In this document: in pieces, positions 22,601-64,000 of the stretch
How positions within the stretch are numbered: position 1 is the stretch's first letter
How the letters are laid out: each line of letters starts with the position of its first letter
Source of the DNA: Ceratodon purpureus
Taxonomy: Eukaryota > Streptophyta > Bryopsida > Pseudoditrichales > Ditrichaceae
DNA: 64,000 bases
NCBI GenBank assembly: GCA_014871385.1
Contig: CM026430.1
Span: forward strand, 3,885,040 to 3,949,039
Reading direction: 5' to 3'
Position numbers and translations under genes: made by a program
The notes under the pieces: model-generated
The model's database searches: none
What the model was told of the DNA's origin: nothing
Seen by the model: only the letters and a program-made list of their open reading frames with translations

Positions 22601-24163
22601 CCATGGGAATCATTTGTTGAATTATAACTATGATTACTCCCAAAACTTAATTGAATTGTTGTCATTTGAAAAACCTTTCATATATTCTCTAATAAATGAT
22701 AGATTTCATAATTATTAATATATTGAGGTGATTTGCTTCTATGAATCATGTCTTTCAATATAAATAAAATCACGTTGACATAACATCCAATACCTAGGAT
22801 ATATTGATTACTTTGATTCTATTCTTTTATAAATAATTTATTGATACATTCATACATTGATTGTTGTTGGTAGTCTTCTGAAGTTGTTTGAAATCTAGTA
22901 TTTCATTAAAGCTTTCATCTAAGTTTTTACTACATCACAATGAAAACCATACACAAGGAATAGTTTGAGAGACAAAGGATATCTTCAACAACTATCATTC
23001 ATTTCTATTATATAAAAATTTGCAACAAACTTGAGCTTGGATAAATGATTTTCATCATGTAATTTGGACCAAATGTGTCTATAAAATCAATCATCTATTA
23101 TAGATAAGATAGAAAAATAACTAAGGCTACGCAATGCTACCCACAACCATCGACAAAAATCATAATTCATCATGTCCTTTGGTACAAACTCTATATTTTT
23201 TAATTTGAATATAAATTAAAAATATTTAACAATGAAGTGTCTATTGCGGCACTTGCAAGAGAAGTGTGAAGTCTCACATTTAGGAAGTAAATAAATAAAT
23301 ACATATTTAGATGTATATTTAGGAAGTTACAAGCGAGGCTAGATTGACAAGAACCACGACTGCGACCACGTCGACACCTATGCCTTCCAATTTCCTTTGT
23401 AAATTTTTGAGTAAAAACCTTTTCCAAGATAAATTTTGCTATAACCTTTTGAATAGCCATCTATATAATCTATATAACCTTTCAAAAAAAAATTCAAGTG
23501 TCCAACTCTAACTTCAATATTTATGACGACAACAACGGTTCTGACACCAATTTTTCTTCATATTTTCTAGGGTAAAACCCTCTCTGAGATCCTCGTCGAC
23601 GAAATTTTTTCAATAAGGATTTGAATTGAAAATGTAGACCTCACATTTGTTATAATTATAGATTATGTAAATGAGTTTTTTCGAATCATTTCACCATTTA
23701 TAATCAATAGACATTCCTTATTTGAATGAAATCCCAAACATAAATGTAGTCATTAATTTTTAAAAATCTACTAAAATTTTGATTTGATCTATCGTAAGAG
23801 CACATAATGTGAAGCATTTGGATGTTTTGTAAATATCTACATTCTATGTGCATCTCTTTGAATACACTACTTTTGAACTTGCATAATTTGTTTTATAAAG
23901 TAGGTGAATGATTAAAAAGATATTTGCATCAAAATATGTACTTCAATCAAGTGGATGAAACAATATATGTGCTCCATTCATAAATATGAACTAAGCAGTA
24001 ATGAAGGTGAGACCAGAGGTGGCATATTAGAGATATCTTAAAATGATAGGAGTTACACATGGATAACAACCATTCTTCATAAAAGTTTGCTACAATAAAA
24101 GCTCCGAGCCAACTTTGAGCAAGAGTGGCAACATAGTCCTGCCAAATCCACAAGGGGCTCTAT
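19617..24163. other. Long AT-rich spacer
   Basis: No recognisable gene in about 4.5 kb. A less AT-rich part at 20150-20720 has only short frames. Plus- and minus-strand frames elsewhere are below 95 codons and without motifs. Direct or inverted repeats strong enough to call were not seen. Confidence 0.45.
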
Positions 24164-51621: not shown

Positions 51622-52423
51622 TAAGGTAGTAACACCTTAAACCGACAGAATAGGCCAGGGAGAATTGACCCTCACCACTGTTCGGGAAGTTTCTAATACA
51701 ATCCAGCTATTATCCCCTTTTCCATAAAAGCATTCGGTAATTTTGTATGATACCTACATGATACCTAGGTGATACCCATGTGATACTTAGGTAATATTTA
51801 AAATACGAGTCGGAAAAAATCCTAACTCTATCAAATTGAATCGGTAATTTGACAACTTCATTCGGCTGATTTACAACTGACTGCCGGATCTCCCCGATCA
51901 TTGACCCTCACACTGGTACCTTACCGGATGAAAGTCGTGGATGGTCCCTTCGGTATCTCATCCATCATGATCCAAGTAGGTAACCCATGGTTCGAACCCA
52001 TGGTTACCTTGACATGTGGATGAATGGGGCCTTTTCGGCCTTATTGTGCACTCATCCTTATGAACCCACATCCATTTAAAGGAATAATTGCAACTTGAAA
52101 GTGCCTTCCAATGAAATGAGAGGACTTAAACATTTTTGTGCACATAAGTAGGAGTGGATATCACTTGTGGTTTCATAGGAGATTTGTAAGTCAAGCACCT
52201 TTGAAGTTTTGAATGGGGTATGTTTCAAACCTTATACTTATTTGTTTTTTTTGTTTTTTTTTTTTAAATTGCATGCATTAAAAATATATGCACATTTGTA
52301 TGGTTTATATTTTAAGAGCATGTTTTTGTAACAATTTAATAATTCTTTATTTCCTAGTTTTATAGGTGTTTTTGAGTAATTACACAAAGCAGAGATAACA
52401 TTTTTTTGTAGAAATGCCATCAT

Positions 52424-53039
52424 GATGGGTATGGCTTAAAGAGTTGTGATATATTCTAAAGTTTCTCTATGATGGGTATTTCCTCCATGAGACTGTGATT
52501 TATCTCATATATAGTCCATGATGGGTATTTCTTAGAGACCAAGATGCATTTCAAAATCTCTATGATGGGTATTTCCTAGAGATCGTGATACGTTTTAAAA
52601 TTGCTCTGTGATGGGTAATACCAAGATGAGTTAACCCTAAAGATGGCGATGGATTTAAAATTATGTTGATGATGGGTATTGTCTATGGATTTAGGAGGGA
52701 TGTCCAAGTGTGCTTATTTTGATGATTGTTTCAAAGTTTTGTGATAAAACTCCATTGTGGCAATGATGGGTATTGCCCCAATGTTCTAGTGTGCCATTAA
52801 GGCAACCAAAGATAAATCTTTTTCCTAAAAAACTTGTGTATGATGGGTATTGTTTGGAGGGTTGTGATATAATACAAAGTAGATTTATGATGGGTATTTT
52901 CCCTACGTTGTGATATAATTCAGAAAGTCTTCATGATGGGTATTGTGAAGAGAGTTATGAGAGTTGTTTATGTATGCTTGCTTCGAAGATAATTTCAAGT
53001 TCTCGTGATAAATCTTACTTGGGCTTCATGATGGGTATT
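52424..53039 (+). repeat. Array of 11 GATGGGTATT boxes, left
   Basis: GATGGGTAT or GATGGGTAA occurs near 52424, 52471, 52520, 52564, 52610, 52671, 52764, 52842, 52889, 52934 and 53030, mostly as TGATGGGTATT. Spacers of 35-85 bp repeatedly contain GTGATA and AGAG words. The array lies just upstream of the transposase start and faces an inverted array downstream of that gene. Arrays of short boxes near transposon ends commonly bind the element's own transposase; that role here is inference. Confidence 0.9.
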
Positions 53040-53212
53040 GCTCAATTATGAAGGTGCATCCTTTTGTGTAGGCATGATTGTTCTTGTGTGCATACATTTT
53101 ATTTTTTTTCATTTTGCAAAATTAATACTTTATTAACTTAGACTTATTTTATTATACTTTTGATATTAATTATTTGATGTGCTATGTATTATTTCTATGT
53201 ATAGAATATAAA

Positions 53213-55725
53213 ATGCCTCGGCGAAAAGAAGATCCCATTGTACCTCAAAGTCCTCCCTTGGGACCAATTTCCTTTGAAGATCTTGTATGGAAACAAGGAG
53301 CACGAAAAGGCTATGGAAACAAGACTACCATCATGCGTGCATACATTCCCTTCGACAGAGTGGGAGATTTCTTAAGGGGACAAACATGTGAAGGTGGAAT
53401 AGAAGTGGGATGGAACGTTGCCGAGAGGATTCAGGGAACACATGTGTTAAGGCCTCAGGTAGACTCTTACATTGAGCATGTTTATTATGAGTGTCCTTTT
53501 GGTCCTAAAGATCTTAGAGGGGACCCTGCTCATCCCCATTCCAAAAAACGGGGATGTTTAGCTAGATTCTCTATCAAGCAACTCTTGCTTAGGCCAGATG
53601 TGGTTGAGGTTGCTTATTACCAGGTTGACCACAATAGGGAAGACGGGACACCTGCACATGGATTAGAAGACAAAGATTCTATAGGAAGAAAGTCAGCTTA
53701 TCAACCAAGAATGTCCCTTGAGTTGAAAAAATGGATCAAAACACGTTTAAGTGAAGGATTCACTGCTAAACAAGTTTATGAGGAGCATAGACGGAATTGG
53801 ATTGAGAGGAGGAAGATGAAATGTCCTGAGATCCGTGATGACTTTGTAGAGCTACGGGACATTGCTTATTATGAGAGCAGACTGAAGATGGGAGTATGGC
53901 GTCGACATCCTAATGATTTCGAGAGCGTGAAGATGTGGATGAAGGAACATCCTGAGAATGTCTTTATGTGGCATGAGAAGGATGATGTGACCGATTTGCC
54001 CTTCATACTTGGAATTCAAACTCCTTGGCAAAAGGAGATGATGCTAAAATATGGACATAACGGGGCCATTGCAATGGATGCAACTTTTGGTACAAATGTC
54101 CCCAAGTACCCTCTTTATTCTTTGCTTGTTTTTGATCACTGGAGAAATGGCATTCCTGTTGCTTGGGTGTTAAGTAGTCGATCATCAGAGGAGGATTTAG
54201 TAATGTGGTTAGAACCTCTTCGAAGACACTTGGAAGGTACAAGACTTGATTTTTTACCATCATGCTTTATTGTTGATGATGCTGTAGAACAGAGTCATGC
54301 TTTGAAACGGGCTTGGCCTGAATCAGAGGTTCCTATTTATTTATGTGCTTTCCATGTTCTAAAGAACTGGAAGAACCACATTTGGACCAAAGTACCCAAC
54401 CTAGGTTCTTTAAGAGAGCTTGTTTATCGGCAATTGCATTCTCTTCTGTACATGCCCATTGAGTACCAAGAAACAGAGGAGGATTTCTTGAAGCGTGCTC
54501 GTGTTAGGAGCAAAAACATGTTCAACTTTCTGTATATCAAAAGCATGGAAGAGTACATTGAGGTCTATTATGATCATCGAGGTGAGTTTCTCTTTGTACC
54601 ATTTCGAAAAGTACTTGATATTTCCATTTCCAATTCTTATAATTGTTTGTGGTTTATAGAGTGAAAGCATTATTCATGGAAGTCTGTCATTTTATGTACG
54701 AACCTCAATACCAAAATAACATTATGTATTTTATTCTTTTCACAGAGATGTATCTTATTGGTCATCGAAGGAACCCCCACTCCAATCAAGACACACAAGC
54801 TAGCATTGAGTCATACCATACTGCTCTTAAGAGGTGGATGAAGATTGACAATCACCAGCTTCGAGGGAGGAGGATGGATTCTCTAGTATGGCGGTTGACT
54901 AATCCAATAGAGACACATTACATGTACAACGATGGGAGGAAGCTAAACGGCTTTGTATTGAATAAGCACGTTGAGAAGATTGTGGCAAGCGGAATTGCCA
55001 AGGCTAAGGGTATACCTATCGAGCATATTCGAAGACATCATGCAATTGAAGGACTCTGGCAGGTGCATTCTCAAAGTGCCCTTGGGCGATGGTATGACAT
55101 TATCGATCCTTATATCAAGTATGCCTCATGTTCTTGTGAATGGGCCATACGTGGGAACATGTGCAAACATCAACTTGTTATTATCAAGTGTTCCACCAAT
55201 ATCTCTTGGAATGACATGTTAGAGTTCCTTGGTACTTACTATGGCTCGGTCCGTGGAGGGCTTCAGGCTATGTTTGAGCATAGTGTTCCAATAGACCCAT
55301 TTGAAGACATCGAAGGAGATGAAGATGAAGAGGATATTGAGGATGTTACTAACATACATGACAACTTCGCTCCACAAGACTTTGATGGAGCAAGTACGTC
55401 TAGAGATTTTGATGGTGTTAGGCAAACTCAACCTTCTATAGAAGGATCTTTACTAGTAATTGATAAACTTGTAGAAGAGTCTAGAGAATTAGCACTTGAA
55501 GGTGGTTTAGAATTGGTCCAACACCTCCAAGCCATGATGACAAAAGTCGTCACAAGCGTCAGACGAATTCGGGCACAACAAAGTGCTGAGAGTTTGCATC
55601 CTCAAACCGTATTCGAGGTAGTCGATGATGGTTTGGGCTCTTCAATTGTTCGAAGAAAGGATTACCGAGAAATAGCTATGTCAAGAATGTCCACTCAGAA
55701 GAAAAGGAAAAGTACAGCGTTGTAG
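53213..55725 (+). CDS. MULE transposase with SWIM zinc finger, two exons
   Basis: Catalyses excision and insertion of Mutator-like elements. Two exons, 53213-54581 and 54746-55725, join in phase at GT...AG (CGAG/GTGAGT; TTTTCACAG/AGATG) to give about 782 residues. The first ATG with good coding is 53213; an in-frame ATG at 53174 precedes it, but TATAG just before 53213 may be a leader-intron acceptor. The DDE core shows AMDATFGTN (D289), FIVDDAVEQ (D355/D356) and CAFHVLKNWKNH (C378). The SWIM finger CSCEWAIRGNMCKH is at 585-598. Upstream, residues ~80-130 have YYECPFGPKD ... KKRGCLARF, resembling a DNA-binding WRKY/GCM-like finger, and the C-terminus is acidic. No stops interrupt either exon, so this copy may still be coding-competent. 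Expected nuclear. Confidence 0.92.
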
Positions 55726-56057
55726 TAATTTATTGAAGACTTCTTTTGGTTGTAAAAGTTTTATTTTTTAAATTATTAAAGGTTACTGTGAAGAAGTACT
55801 ATTGCACATTAATAAATGTTTTTTTAATGAATGCATAAAATTCAAAATGTTTAGGTGGTGTGTCTTCTATAATTTTAAAGGAAACCATCAAAATAATAAT
55901 TTTAATGATTTTTGAACTCTTATTATAACTTCGTGTCTATACTCATCACAATTTTTATTTTAAAAAGAAGTTCCATCATTCTCTTGTAATTGGTTGGAAT
56001 GATGAGCTTTGTAAAATTCACCTTCACCCAAAAATTTTTTTACAAGAGCCTCAAGAG

Positions 56058-56617
56058 AATACCCATCACGAATTAGTTTTAGGCACAATAATTATATCTC
56101 TGGTTTTAAACTTCAAGGTGCTTGACCTCGGAATACCCATCTCAATGAGTCTTTGAATATATCATGAGCTTAGAGCAATACCCATCTCGTAGTTATTTTC
56201 AAGTATCACATGACCCAAGTGCGATACCCATCACGAATTTGTTTTCAACTATCACATAACTTGAGTGTAATACCCATCACGAATCAATTTTTGGCTCAAT
56301 AATTATATCTCTGGTTTTTAGAGTCAAGGTGCTTGACTCCGCAATACCCATCTCAAGGAGTCTTTGAATATATCATGAGCTTAGAGCAATACCCATGTCG
56401 AAGTTATTTTCAACTATCACATGACCCAAGTGCAATACCCATCACGAAGCAAATTTCAACTATCACATGAGTTAAGTATAATACCCATCATGAAATAGTT
56501 TTGAGCTCAATAATTATATCTCTGATTTTTAAGCCCTAAGGCTCATAATCTCAACAATACCCATTTCGAAAAACTTTGATATATCACAAAAGCTTAGGGG
56601 CAAAGGAAATACCCATC
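56058..56617 (-). repeat. Array of 11 AATACCCATC boxes, right (inverted)
   Basis: AATACCCAT or GATACCCAT occurs near 56058, 56132, 56177, 56222, 56269, 56343, 56388, 56434, 56480, 56555 and 56608, mostly followed by CACGAA or CTCG. This is the reverse complement of the left array's box, in equal number. Spacers share ATATCAC/ATATCATGAGCTTAGAG words with the left array read inverted. It lies about 330 bp after the transposase stop and before the convergent second gene. Confidence 0.9.
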
Positions 56618-56932
56618 ACGAAACAATTTTGTGGGAAATAGTTAAATCTCTAAAGTGCAAAACCTCCTAAACCTTGAACTTGGAAATACATATATTTAGA
56701 TGGTTTATAATGAACTCACAAATTCGTTTGCAAATTTCTTTTCTATAAGATGATGGAAAAGATTTATGAAATAAAGATGTTTCAAGTAATTCACAAAATT
56801 GACATTCCAAGTGAAACAATGATATGCAAAATTGGATACTTCATATTCCACAATATTGTTTCAACCATCACAATGAGGTTGGAAACAAATCAATCTAGAA
56901 GAAAGGCTACAAAACCAAAAGCACTAATGTAA

Positions 56933-58386
56933 TTAGAAATCGTAAACATCCTCTCCGTTTCCTTGGTCTTCTCTCACTTCACTTCCTTCTCCTTGAATTC
57001 CACCATTTCCTCCAACTCCACCATCTCTTGCATTATCTTCTCTTTCTTCATCTTCTTCTCCATTAGCTCCACCATCCTCTTCATGTTCTTCTTCATCATC
57101 ATGATTGTCTCCATCGTCATCATCATCGGTTTGTGAAACTATCTCTTCATAAGTATCTTCTTCAACCTCATCTTCTCCACTTCCCTCTTCTCCACTATTG
57201 AAGATATCATCACCTAGGCCATGTTTTGCACGATAGGAATCACATGCAACTTCCACACGCTCCATTCTTGACACATTCTCCATCTCATAAAACTTGGTCT
57301 TCAAAAACAAGTATCTTGCAATCCACTTATCCTCCCCCGTGATGAGACTAAACAAAAAAAAATTAAAATAATACATAAGTATATGAAAATGTAAAACTCT
57401 TAACATAAACATAAACAATGACAATCTTTAGAAGAAGAGAAGAAATTTAAACTCACATGTTTTTCATACTCTTTGCACGGTGCCACTTCACAATTGAAGC
57501 CACCAAACCCTTTCTCTCCTTCTCATTCCTTTCCCACTTGGAATAATAAAAGAGTTCTTAAAAATCCTTGGTCACTTTCTTGTTGTTTTGAGGGTTTGAT
57601 CTCACCAAATCTGCAAGGGCCTCCAAGTTGTGCAATTTCTCAATCTTGGAGAAATTGAGATTACCTTTGCCCAAAGACTCAACTCCAAGAAACTCTTCCA
57701 ACTTCCCACCGTTCTTGATGAGACTAAGTAGGAGTGGGCATTGCCCTGGAGGTGGCTCCTTCCTAGCTCTCTCCTCCAATTTCTTCCAAGACATTTGAGC
57801 CCTAATGCTCCAAGCTTCCTTCTTCTTCTCAAACTCCTTCTTCTCTCTCAAGTAAGATGTGGTCATGATCTTCAAATTCGGATTCTTGGTAGTCTTCTTC
57901 TTCTTCTTCTTGGTCTTGTCATTCTCATCTTCTTTAGGCCCGGGCTTCAATTTCTCTAACTCCAACTTATGAGCTTTCTTCATGTGTTCATTGAAGTATT
58001 ACTTGTGTTTGAAAGGTCCATATGGACACTTCCGATTGTTCACACTTACAAGGCACAAGTAGGGGTCATCTTTACCCTTACCTTTGGACCAATGCTCTCC
58101 TTCAATTGCATCACCCATCTTTTCCACCACTTGAGGTATCTCATCCCCATTCCTATTCCTCTTCACAATGGCTACAAAAAATCATAATAACAAATCATTT
58201 AGTTCCAAATAGCATTAGAACTTCTAAACTGAAAACTCCATAATTTCAAATCCAAAATAATTGCAAACATTTCCAAAAACATTTAGCTTTACCTTTAGGC
58301 AAATGCTCTCCTTGAATTGCATGGTCCAAGTTGTCCACCACTCTAAGTCTCTCACCTCCATTCTTACTCCTCTTCCTCTTCACCAT
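56933..58386 (-). pseudogene. Second MULE gene, broken: zinc-finger-like, basic then acidic
   Basis: Transcribed toward the transposase gene. A first exon (58386-58293, MVKRKRSKNGGERLRVVDNL ... EHLPK) joins an exon starting near 58171 (acceptor TTTTTTGTAG). That exon holds KCPYGPFKHK-YFNEHMKKAH, a possible C2H2-like finger, then a Lys/Glu-rich helix and QMSWKKLEERARKEPPPGQC. Two in-frame TAA codons interrupt it, one after PFKHK and one after VTKDF; both could come from CAA by C-to-T change. The last exon (from ~57347) has EDKWIARYLFLKTKFYEMEN, then a very acidic tail ending GNGEDVYDF. The first exon and its flanks are duplicated with a 217-bp offset (58080-58290 and 58297-58510). I do not recognise the family. 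Convergent placement recalls mudrB of maize MuDR, without visible homology. Confidence 0.6.
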
Positions 58387-58514
58387 GGCTACAAAAAATC
58401 ACATGTTGATTAAAATTCAATTAGTTCCAAATAACATTAGAACCCCTAAACTCAAAATTCCATAATTCTTAATCCAAAAGGATTGCAATCATTTAAAAAA
58501 AAAACTCCAAGATT

Positions 58515-59105
58515 GAATGTAATTGCAAATGGACATATAATAGGACATTTAGTACTTTGTAATACAAAACTAGAAGCCTACAATCAACATTCAACTAAAC
58601 CTCATATATGTTACACTTTAAGAAGTTCATACAATGAGCAAAGTAGCTAAAACACTAAACCCTAATTCTCCAAAAACAATACAAACTTATCAAATGTAAA
58701 TACAATCCATACATTTCTTCAACACAATTCATACATACAAGAATTGAATGATTCTAAACCAAAGCACAATGAAACATCAAGACAAATGTAGAAAATAGCT
58801 TGCATCAACATACATTAGAAATCATTTGTTCCAAGGTTGAGGCTTCTATTTCTCCTACCTAATACTAATTCTAACTCCTTTCTTTCTTCTAGAACCTACA
58901 CTTCAATCTACAAAAAGATAACAAAGAATTCTCAATATAAAATGAAAAACATCCAACTTAAAATCCTATAATATATCTAACTAAAACTTGTAATTTCAAG
59001 GTGAAAACCACTAAAGCAACCAAAACTAGACACAAAGCAAACAATAAGTAGCAATGAAGCAATCATAACAAGGAATAATAACAAGCAATGAATAAATTAA
59101 AATAC
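58515..59105. other. AT-rich non-coding part of the MULE
   Basis: AT-rich DNA upstream of the broken second gene, inside the Mutator-like element. It should hold that gene's leader or introns. No further motif was recognised. Confidence 0.4.
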
Positions 59106-59109
59106 AACG

Positions 59110-59460
59110 ACTGTACCTGAGGGCGGTTGCTGCAGGACGAGACGGACAGGGCTCCGGGGAAGGCGAGGTGGCGAGGGCAAGGTGGCGACGGCGATGGTGA
59201 CAGGCGACAGGCGACCTGCGGAGGGAGAGCGGAGACAGACAGGGTCGACGGGGGGGGAGGGCGAGGTCGCTGCGAGGCGGGAAGGCGGGAAGGGGGCGGG
59301 GGCAGTGGGAGCGGGGGGGGGGAACTGGGAGCGCGGGTGGTGAACGGCGGGCGGGAACGGCAGGGGGGGAACGGCAAGCAACTGCGGTTAGGTGGAAGGG
59401 GAGGGGATGACGCCCCACACTCTGTCCCGCGAGGGTACCAGTGTGGGGGCTGATCCTCCC
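59110..59460. other. GC-rich segment at the right end of the MULE
   Basis: About 350 bp of very GC-rich, plus-strand purine-rich DNA (GGCGGGAAGGGGGCGGGGGC-like), starting and stopping sharply in an AT-rich element. All three minus-strand frames read as Pro/Ser/Arg-rich low-complexity peptides and are not accepted as genes. The composition resembles a host promoter or 5' exon. MULEs are known to capture GC-rich host gene pieces (Pack-MULE behaviour), so capture is a reasonable inference; a native promoter for the second gene is the alternative. Confidence 0.5.
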
Positions 59461-59871
59461 TAGGCGACAGAATAAGGGAATTGGTAAGCGAGGAGTGCAA
59501 CGAGCATGAAGTGAAACCATGAACGTGTTAGCAAATTGGAGACGAAGTGTTGGGTCTTGGAATTAGTATTTTTGGACATAAGAGTAATTTTATACAAATT
59601 TTTGAAGTGAAAGTGTTGTAAACACCTAATTAAAATTGTAGGCTTCCAAAAGAATAGAAGAAACACATGGACAAAATTTGTTAATGCTTCCATCTCACTC
59701 CTTCCATCTCATTGGTTCTAATGACCATTTAGTGAAGTTGTGATCAAGTTTAGGTGTACTCCAAATCACTTCGAGGTGAAATTATAGGAGTCAAAATTAG
59801 GTACTCGCTATTTAAGGTGTTACTACCTTAGCACTCATGGTCCATTGGCGTTAATAGGGTATTCTACCTTA

Positions 59872-60349: not shown

Positions 60350-63300
60350 TGTTAGAAAGGTTCTAGAAAGGTTCGAGAAGGGTGCGACCTCGGGAGCACC
60401 GACATGCAACTCCCGGGTGTCTTAAACTGAAGTAGAGTACAACACTAAGTTAGTCATAGTTAATCCCTCAGTGTCATCACCTTGAGGGCTTTGGAGTTAA
60501 CGTTCTTGAGGCAATAAATAAGATCAGCCTGAGGAAGGCTACACACTTTCCATCTTCATTTTCCCCTTTCCTCTGAGCTTTGTAACACGTTATCAGCACG
60601 AGTTGCTCTTGATTTGTTTACTATTGCTCATTGTTTCTTACTTTTGTTCATTGCTTCTCATTATTGCTCTTACTGTTTTGCTCTCATATAGTCACTGTTC
60701 ATTTTCTCTTGCTATTTGTTTTACTCACCACTGCTCTTGTTATCTATTGTACTTGTTCATTTGGTCATTTAAGTCATTTGGTTAATTGGTAATTTATTGA
60801 TCTGCTCACAGCTAATTTGTTGATTTGTTCACAGCTAATTTTCTGCTTTGCTGCAATGTTGATTTTCTGCTCTGCTGCAGTGCTAATCTTCTGCTTTGCT
60901 GCAGGGATGCTTTTCTGATTTTCTGAGCACCCAACTGCTGATTTTCCCATCTGCTCAGTCATTGCTGATTTCCTCATCTTCTCAGTCACTGCTGATTTTC
61001 CTATCTGCTCAGTCATTGCTAATTTCCTCATCTTCTCAGTCACTGCTGATTTTCCTATCTGCTCAGTCATTGCTAATTTCCTCATCTTCTCAGTCACTGC
61101 TGATTTTCCTATCTGATCAGTCATTTGCTAATTTCCTCATCTTCTCAGTCACTGCTGATTTTCTCATCTGCTGAGTCATTGCTGATTTTCTCATTTGCTA
61201 CCTGTTATTACATTTACAGCTTTGGTTTTTATCTTTTTGGCTCTCTCATTTCTCTGCTTTTGCTCTCTGAGTTGTCTGTTTTGGCTCTGTGATTCATCAA
61301 CCTTGGTTTTTCCATCAACCTTGGTTTTTTCATCAACCTTGGTTCTTCCATCAAACCTTGGTTTTTCCATCAGTACCAAGTTGTAGGACTGTAAGCACGA
61401 GGACCGCCAACAGACCGCAAGACAGACGACTTCAGCCACAACCGGGAGTGATCTATTTCCCCTCACTCAGATTTTATTTCTACTCTTGGTTTTTGAGTTT
61501 TTGTTACTAGGTGTTGATTTCTATATCTTCCCTAGGTAACATCGGAACTCACTAACCGTGCAACGAAGGTTTCTGTCACACAGAAGTTGGAGCAGTTTGT
61601 GTGGCCGTGCCCCTCCTAGGAATTGACAAGCTTCCGAGTGGGCCAGCTCTTGAGGAGCTCTTTCCTTCGTCATGGCTAAGTCCGAAGCCAAGATCAAGAC
61701 TCTCCTGTTCGATCCTTTGGCGGCTGATGGCAGTAATTTTTTGGAATGGTCTAATGAAATGACTACCTTCCTATGTACAGAGGAATTGGACGGAGCTTTG
61801 AACGCCCAGACAGCGGCTACGCTTCAAAGTTCTTGGAAGCATCAAGCTTTGATGATACTTCGCCGTCACATTGATGCCTCATTGCGATCACAGTACATTC
61901 AAGTCAACGATCCGACAGAGTTATGGAAGCAGTTGCAAACTCGTTTCCGACATGAGAAGACTCTCTTTTTGCCACAGGCACGCACTGATTGGTATAGGTT
62001 GCGTGTGATTGATTTTCCAAACTTGAAGGCTTATGATGCAGAGATGCACCGCATTGTTGCACAACTCCGTCTATGTGGCGACGTGATCACCGAGGAGCAA
62101 CTTATTGAGAAGACACTCTCAACCTTTCCTCCTGCTAGTTCTGTTCTTGCTGAGCAATATGACAATATGAATTATAAGTGTCATTCTGACCTCATGAGTA
62201 AGTTGTATCAAGCTGAGAAGAAGGCGTTGATTCGATTGAAGAATGCGGAGGAACGACCAGTCCGGGAGATTCATTCCACTCAGAAGCCATCAACTCCTGA
62301 ACCGTCAATTGTTCCTACCAAGAAGGAGCCAGAACATGAGACTCACAGCATTGAAGCAGCCAAACGCCAACCCCGAAGTACAAGTGGTCGTGGCAGAGGG
62401 CGTGATGGTCGGTATTCCTCAAGAAGAGAAGACCACCGCTATAAATCTAACCAACGCTATCATAATGAGCGTCGAGACTATTCCAGGTACCACAACAACC
62501 ATGAATATCATCAGCGCTATCAGAGTCAGTCTAGTCAGACCGCCAGAACCAGTCCCGCTAGAGATACGTGTCACCGATGTGGACGACAGGGTCATTTTGC
62601 TAGAGAATGTCGTACTCCCGAGTACTTTGTTGAAATGTACAGGGAGTTACAGAAATTGAAAGAGGAGAAGAGAGAAGTGCACACTCTCGATGCACCCTCT
62701 TTCAATGACATTTGCCCTGAAAACTATATGGTCTATCAGTCTAGTTCACGGTCTGACACGGCACTTCTAGATAGCGCATCTACTCATTCTATTTTTCGAG
62801 ATCCTCAGTTCTTTGAGGCCAATTGCTTGGAGGGACCCTGGCAAGAGTGCACTATTACTACCATTGCCGGAAGACGGAAACTTAAGTTCCGTGAGGGCCG
62901 GGCAACAATAGTATTGCCCGGAGGATTCCCCCTCGAGTGTGAAAGAGCCATGTATGCTCCAGCCGCACCCCGTAGTCTGATCAGCTACCGGGATTTGCGT
63001 GCAAATGGGATCCACGCCTTCACCCACGGGGAACGCGATGATGAAAGGGCGCTAGCACTCCGTAAAGGAGGACAATTGCTTGCCATGGTACAAGAAGGCG
63101 CCACTGGACTTTATGAAGTATTGATTTCGGCAGCTGCAAGCAATGCCCGCTCTTGCAACCTCACAGTGATTCCTAAGACTCAGCTCTGGCACCGGCGCTT
63201 GGGACACCCGGGTGCCACTATGTTCCGCAAGATGTTGCCAGTACTTACCGGCCATCCATTAAGTACCAGTGATGCAGACAAGGTGGCTGATTGCACAGCA

Positions 63301-64000
63301 TGTATTCAAGGCAAGTATGCCAAGGCAGCATCTCGGTGGAAGCTCCCGACCGAGCTCCCTCAACCCCTTGAGCGCCTCCAGGGCGATATTTGTGGCCCCA
63401 TCAGCCCACCGGCAGGTTAGTTTTTATATTTTCTGGTCCTTGTTGATGCGTCTGGTAGTCACGCCGAAGTATCTTTGCTTACAACCAGGAACATGGCCTT
63501 TCCAAAAATTCTAGCTATGCTCATCAAGTTTAGAACCCATTTTCCTGATAAACCCATCAAGACTCTGCGTATGGACAATGCTCAAGAATTTAGATCTCAT
63601 GCCTTTGAAGACTATTGTACAGCCACAGGTATAGAGCTCACGTATGCTGTCCCATACGAGCATTCTCAAAACGGTCTAGCAGAAGCCTACATTAAGAAAA
63701 TTCAGCTTATTACCCGCCCCTTGCTTCTTCATGCTAATCTCCCTGCTTCTATGTGGGGACATGCTGTTCTCCATGCTGCTAATCTCTTGCGACTTAGACC
63801 AACTCTTCTCAATTCTCAAACTTCATTTGAGTTAGTCTGAGGCAGAATCCCTGATGTTAGCCACCTGCGAGTATTTGGTTGTCAAGTCTTCGTACCTGCA
63901 CCTGAGCCTCAAATCCGAACCATTAGTGCTCACAGGATAGAGGGCGTTTACATTGGCTTTGACTCACCCTGCATCATCAGATACTTAGTGCCTACCTCTG
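60350..64000 (+). mobile_element. Ty1/copia LTR retrotransposon, 5' part, fossil
   Basis: The element enters near 60350 and is cut by the window end. A likely 5' LTR runs from TGTTAGAAAGG (60350) to TTTGTAACA (about 60587). It is followed by GTTATCAGCACGAG, the primer-binding-type sequence seen after many plant copia LTRs. A leader of about 1.1 kb precedes gag (from ~61.67 kb). Parts visible in copia order: gag with a CCHC zinc knuckle (~62.57 kb), an aspartic protease motif LLDSASTHS (~62.77 kb), a pre-integrase HRRLGHPG motif (~63.19 kb) and the integrase core (from ~63.35 kb onward). Protease-integrase order ahead of reverse transcriptase identifies copia rather than gypsy. It looks broken, with about two interruptions in the visible part. 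Age cannot be judged because the 3' LTR is outside the window. Confidence 0.88.
60945..61190 (+). repeat. 54-bp minisatellite in the copia leader
   Basis: Units marked by CTCAGTCACTGCTGATTTTC recur at about 60981, 61035, 61089 and 61144 (periods 54, 54, 55), with TCAGTCATTGCTAATTTCCT between them. Half-unit similarity (~27 bp) suggests an older, shorter repeat. A further small repeat, CATCAACCTTGGTTTTT (~18 bp, five copies), lies at 61295-61372. Both are in the untranslated leader between LTR and gag. Confidence 0.88.

Follow-up and report, generated by a model that had tools for sequence, protein, structure and literature searches.

Spm/En, a CACTA transposon, carries arrays of a short motif near its ends, and these are bound by an element protein, TnpA, that also counters methylation. 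CACTA elements have CACTA termini and 3-bp target duplications. Terminal inverted repeats are usual, though not universal, in MULEs. In the MULE known as MuDR the two genes are convergent, as in the element described here, and the inverted repeats are much longer than the ~32 bp found in the present family; we know of no internal box arrays in MuDR. To our knowledge, the Arabidopsis VANDAL elements are the only known case of anti-silencing that is encoded by a transposon and uses short, repeated target sites.

The VANDAL elements (VANDAL21/Hiun with VANC21; VANDAL6 with VANC6) have a MULE transposase gene, an extra gene and dense one-orientation motif arrays that gain and lose tandem repeats between copies (PMC5735166), all of which the element described here shares. 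According to Hosaka et al. 2017 (PMC5735166), VANC21 targets carry the motif densely and in the same orientation in non-coding DNA, upstream of the transposase gene and elsewhere in the element. YAGTATTAY is bound by the accessory protein VANC21, with loss of methylation, and units of the motif arrays come and go rapidly (PMC5735166). MuDR of maize has a transposase gene (mudrA), a second gene (mudrB), inverted repeats and 9-10-bp target duplications, again as in the present element, and further MULEs with second genes are known (PMC6446971).

The window analyzed here, a 64-kb stretch of the Ceratodon purpureus genome (362 Mb searched), contains a whole MULE copy of 7,813 bp at 51653..59465 (+ strand), of which about 236 bp are a nested insertion and its duplicated site. 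Ten further copies from the same genome were fetched and aligned to it. The alignment started exactly at window position 51900 in nine of the ten and stopped exactly at 59465 in seven; the 3' end at 59465 was unaligned in two copies (C11a and C11b) and neither end aligned in C1c, the most diverged. The true 5' terminus of the nine copies lies 11 bases further out and reads GGCCAGGG or GGCCAAGG. In the window copy these terminal bases sit at 51653 because ~224 bp have been inserted into the 5' inverted repeat. The nested insertion (51676-51899) is flanked by ATTGACCCTCAC at 51664-51675 and 51900-51911, and it may have immobilized the window copy. It splits the 5' terminal inverted repeat (51653..51920, + strand); the 3' repeat (59434..59465, - strand) matches the 5' repeat at 24 of 32 bases when family sequences are compared. 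A 9-bp target-site duplication, GACAGAATA, borders the element at 51644..51652 and 59466..59474 (no strand assigned). Taking the best of four offsets, the duplications agreed at 9/9 bases in seven of nine elements checked and at 8/9 and 6/9 bases in the remaining two; the perfect match of copy C6a sits one base off the end. The common outer ends and the 9-bp duplications found there therefore define the element as 51653-59465, holding both genes and both arrays.

A PF10551 domain, a ~9-bp target duplication and ~32-bp terminal inverted repeats place the element in the MULE superfamily. It shares short-motif arrays with Spm/En, but it has the MULE domain, its arrays are internal, one of them 2.9 kb from the end, and its ends, GGCCAGGG or GGCCAAGG with 9-bp duplications, are not those of CACTA elements. 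The same window also contains an EIN3 gene, and adjoining the element, at 61672-63420, is an open frame with GAG-pre-integrase and zinc-knuckle domains belonging to a Copia-type retrotransposon.

The transposase gene consists of two exons, both open in the window copy, with a splice site deduced from the sequence. Exon 1 (53213..54583, + strand) carries the MULE domain PF10551 (E 3.9e-11, 43.7 bits against a curated cut-off of 27.6). Exon 2 (54748..55725, + strand) has a SWIM-type zinc finger that scores below the Pfam cut-off. Searching the same genome with the transposase gave at least 133 matches, with 88 of 1370 first-look candidates scored; four matches, the window's own included, were 96-100% identical over the query and contained no stops. 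The median dN/dS was 0.31 (range 0.14-0.78) for exon 1 and 0.41 (0.18-1.06) for exon 2.

The second gene lies on the opposite strand. Exon A (57456..58169, - strand) encodes a basic protein with a tentative C2H2-like finger and has two TAA stops in the window copy (codons 56 and 203 of 237 compared). Exon B (56933..57350, - strand), whose start is approximate and whose splice is deduced, encodes an acidic C-terminus. This is a real gene and exon A is under purifying selection (median dN/dS 0.30, range 0.09-0.60, 55 pairs); constraint on exon B is much looser (median 0.61, range 0.06-3.94). The protein, taken from copy C1a, matched no Pfam family at E up to 1, neither DUF1985 nor DUF287, and the window copy read through its stops gave one Pfam match, far below the cut-off. 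Searches of the PDB returned chance-level matches only (E 1.3 and above). More distant second-gene relatives, 37-39% identical, lie in the same genome at C4:180783, C6:97988652 and C6:33795635. Among six copies compared, one ligand of the tentative finger is missing in each of C6a and C6b. That the protein may bind DNA is a guess made from this finger. The start of the second gene also overlaps a ~210-bp direct duplication, 78-81% identical (58072-58501), with cross-matches in seven of ten copies, which may provide alternative first exons.

The box is a 10-letter word, GATGGGTATT, which with at most one mismatch occurs 24 times in the window. Shuffled sequences gave a mean of 5.1 and a maximum of 13, and none of 100 shuffles reached 24. 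All but two of the matches (single sites at 23452 and 25994) fall in two arrays. The 5' array (52424..53039, + strand) lies between the 5' end of the element and the transposase start and contains 11 boxes, nine of them exact. The 3' array (56058..56617, - strand) has 11 inverted boxes, eight exact, and separates the two genes, which converge on it with their 3' ends. The initial annotation had described 11 + 11 facing boxes around the transposase gene with the second gene outside them. Both statements hold: the box count is far above chance, the arrays enclose the transposase exons (53213 to ~55725), and the second gene occupies ~56933-58169 (- strand) beyond them. Within each array the boxes are dense, in a single orientation and in non-coding DNA, as in the VANC21 targets. 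Six of the ten intervals in the 5' array measure 44-49 bp and the remaining four 61-95 bp; in the 3' array a four-box pattern is repeated at 211 bp, as seen from box positions and alignment cross-matches. In 11 of the 22 units the box is preceded by a second word, GTGATA, against 0.33 expected from single-base shuffles, several such units being mutual duplicates.

The two arrays are inverted homologues, with ~62% identity over ~200 bp (E ~1e-10), and judged by this mutual identity they are old. A concerted origin, as had been suggested, applies only in this sense. Foldback pairing between the arrays was considered and set aside, their homology being only ~62%. Genome-wide, there are 92 + 101 exact box pairs in the same orientation 30-45 bases apart; a reversed control pattern gave 0 + 0. 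The raw genome box counts (878 + 896 vs 132 + 140) overstate the family because the inverted repeat of a MITE contains the word. Facing-box pairs ~320 bp apart, recurrent among the matches listed (all on C1), were rejected as mini-arrays, as the two examined (L002 and L008) proved to be this unrelated MITE. At ~1500-1830 in both loci the box word lies within its inverted repeat, AGATGGGTATTCCCGTCAG, in what seems to be a coincidence.

Copies differ in box number. Counting forward/inverted boxes with at most one mismatch, the window has 11/11, C11a 11/11, C1a 11/10, C1b 12/11, C6a 11/11, C11b 12/7, C6b 9/7, C1c 10/5, C6c 11/11 (one stray outside box excluded), C6d 10/11 and C6e 11/9. Over the 11 copies the range is thus 9-12 forward and 5-11 inverted boxes. 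The equal count of 11 = 11 is not a rule, because it is true of only four of the 11 copies compared (the window, C11a, C6a, and C6c without its stray box). The earlier suggestion that equal numbers reflect selection fails on counts running from 9/7 and 10/5 to 12/11. Copies differ by the part of the 3' array containing the 211-bp four-box repeat; when a 601-base 3' array query was used, only bases 230 onward matched in C6b, C11b and two other loci. C11b has ~0.9 kb inserted in the 3' array and C1c has two breaks in the 5' array, the sequence resuming beyond in each.

The box itself is better conserved than its surroundings. Across 14 sequences of the 5' array, conservation was 0.971 in box columns and 0.944 in spacer columns, and two of 615 shifted masks did equally well or better; between close copies the excess is a small effect. 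In all seven comparisons with six diverged copies (C1c, in two parts, accounts for two of them), the boxes were more similar to the window than the spacers were, by 7 to 16 points of identity. The shifted masks that did equally well in these comparisons numbered 1, 1, 12, 17, 18, 53 and 72 of 615, the two weaker comparisons (53 and 72) being L037 and L038. Between the gene-less element L058 and C1a, the 5' array is identical at 96 of 110 box positions and 411 of 507 spacer positions. Conservation over the 22 window units is 98% for the box and 52% for the ungapped flanks, a figure that is partly circular because the box was picked as the best-conserved word and some 3' units are recent mutual duplicates. 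Boxes are present in all eight further relatives examined, down to 54% transposase identity (L024/L037, five boxes). A 41%-identical relict, L059, was examined as a candidate for a different box motif; it has no GATGGGTATT box and no clear array of another kind. The proposal that the arrays are an internal binding platform therefore gains from the finding that the box outlasts the spacers; the binding of a protein to it is a prediction from sequence.

The family includes a natural deletion series. Allowing up to three mismatches, the 5' end was found 56 times and the 3' end 64 times genome-wide (controls 0), and these pair into 41 complete elements; the window copy is missing from the 41 because its 5' end is split. 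Of these elements 28 are gene-less and 1.0-3.1 kb long. Another three pairs without genes span 6.9, 18.4 and 20.9 kb and may have been matched by chance or contain insertions. By marker, the 5' array is in 39 and the 3' array in nine of the 41. Whole-array searches, in which the best 40 of 118 and the best 40 of 48 candidates were scored, added C2:19242508 to the elements with a 5' array and C5:1488876, with a partial one, to those with a 3' array, bringing the totals to 40/41 and 10/41; C6:103011054 is the remaining element with no assigned 5' array. The 5' array marker lies 557-590 bp from the 5' end at 49 of 56 5' ends, even in a 959-bp derivative. This constancy may reflect need or common descent from one founder.

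All ten complete elements with a 3' array hold the second gene, and six of them also the transposase. In the 31 complete elements lacking both genes, marker and whole-array searches (40 of 48 candidates scored) found no 3' array. L058, the sole gene-less element examined in detail, has nine 5' boxes, no 3' array and a perfect 9-bp target duplication. It transposed without a 3' array, which was therefore dispensable in cis in that event. Movement without arrays, which the initial annotation had named as refuting its interpretation, is accordingly seen for the 3' array and not for the 5' array. Four elements of 4.5-5.5 kb with no transposase match (C5:1488876-1493411, C4:5838197-5843689, C6:98636124-98640856 and C6:98815386-98820108) have a stop-free second-gene exon A and at least part of the 3' array; the two on C6 look like near twins by their equal scores. 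Pieces of the family also occur in tandem arrays. One at C11:14075492-14136784, with a period of ~1147 bp, has a unit holding a piece of the 3' box array (189 bp, 74% identity, 20 matches) and a second-gene fragment (23 matches at 59%), and this satellite looks to be derived from the box-array MULE family. Another, at C2:24117012-24143622, has a period of 964 bp, ~28 units and a more distant second-gene fragment (33-35%).

Several functions could be imagined for such arrays. One alternative in the initial annotation was that they form the extended inverted termini of a smaller element lying within a larger one. The symmetry of the layout is the only feature that suggests this, together with a deletion in C6e that removes the last part of the transposase gene and leaves 20 bp before the 3' array; even there both flanking sequences extend to the shared element termini. 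An array is not the terminus in any of the ten aligned copies, the ends are the outer inverted repeats, with perfect 9-bp duplications in seven of the nine elements checked, and the second gene lies inside the same element. The nested arrangement is almost certainly wrong. Neutral minisatellites spread by slippage, with the word conserved merely through the youth of the units, would account for the duplicated 211-bp four-box block of the 3' array and for the differing box numbers. Such an origin is very improbable, as the arrays have diverged to ~62% identity and the box has not, and as box columns outlast spacers between copies.

The boxes could be internal (subterminal) sites of the transposase itself, assembling a transposition complex in the manner of the TnpA sites of Spm/En. 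The presence of the 5' array in 40 of the 41 elements with both ends, at a near-constant distance from the 5' end, fits this main rival. It is weakened because the 3' array is dispensable and deeply internal: at 2.9 kb from the 3' end it is too far inside for an ordinary end-binding site, and gene-less elements such as L058, with its perfect target duplication, would have to make do with sites at a single end. The box is also absent from the 32-bp terminal repeats. Transposase binding is on balance doubtful. Enhancer-like sites for a host transcription factor driving the transposase gene would suit the conserved box and a 5' array that stops 173 bp before the likely start codon of the transposase. 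That account leaves the inverted homologous array downstream of the gene unexplained and is unlikely.

The best explanation, to which we give a probability of about one half, is that the arrays are an internal protein-binding platform in a two-gene MULE, most likely for an activating or de-silencing protein encoded by the element. The element would make a DNA-binding protein, most likely the second-gene product, and many copies of it would occupy the closely spaced boxes, both those ahead of the transposase gene and those separating the two genes. The loaded protein would then activate transcription or strip silencing marks from the element, as VANC does on VANDAL. The retention of a stop-free second-gene exon A and at least part of the 3' array in the four transposase-less elements favors such a platform. 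The assignment of the box-binding role to the second protein is an inference.

The element differs from VANDAL in several respects. It has ~32-bp terminal inverted repeats and the original VANDAL elements have none. VANDAL members with inverted repeats are also found in a table of PMC6446971. The second protein has neither of the VANC domains, DUF1985 and DUF287. On both strands of the window element the VANC21 and VANC6 motifs YAGTATTAY, AGTTGTAC and AGTTGTCC occur 0, 0 and 1 times. With a similar layout and a different motif, protein and terminal repeats, the element is therefore classed outside VANDAL, as one that would work in the way of a VANC target; anti-silencing by this family is predicted from that likeness. 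MULE second genes and VANDAL motif arrays are already known, and what is new is a MULE that combines facing arrays with an unrelated, conserved second gene. A limited literature search, of titles and abstracts, found no earlier description of a facing-array MULE family.

At minimum, a MULE family with full and deleted copies provides a natural deletion series. A bolder proposal, possible though not probable, is that this is a second, independently evolved sequence-specific anti-silencing system, in which a non-VANDAL MULE uses an unrelated zinc-finger-like second protein that loads on facing GATGGGTATT arrays and keeps the transposase gene open, and whose derivatives kept the protein gene and the arrays and dropped the transposase. 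If true, one box and one candidate protein would make a compact, testable pair, and the same layout with a different motif and an unrelated protein would mean that the anti-silencing strategy arises repeatedly.
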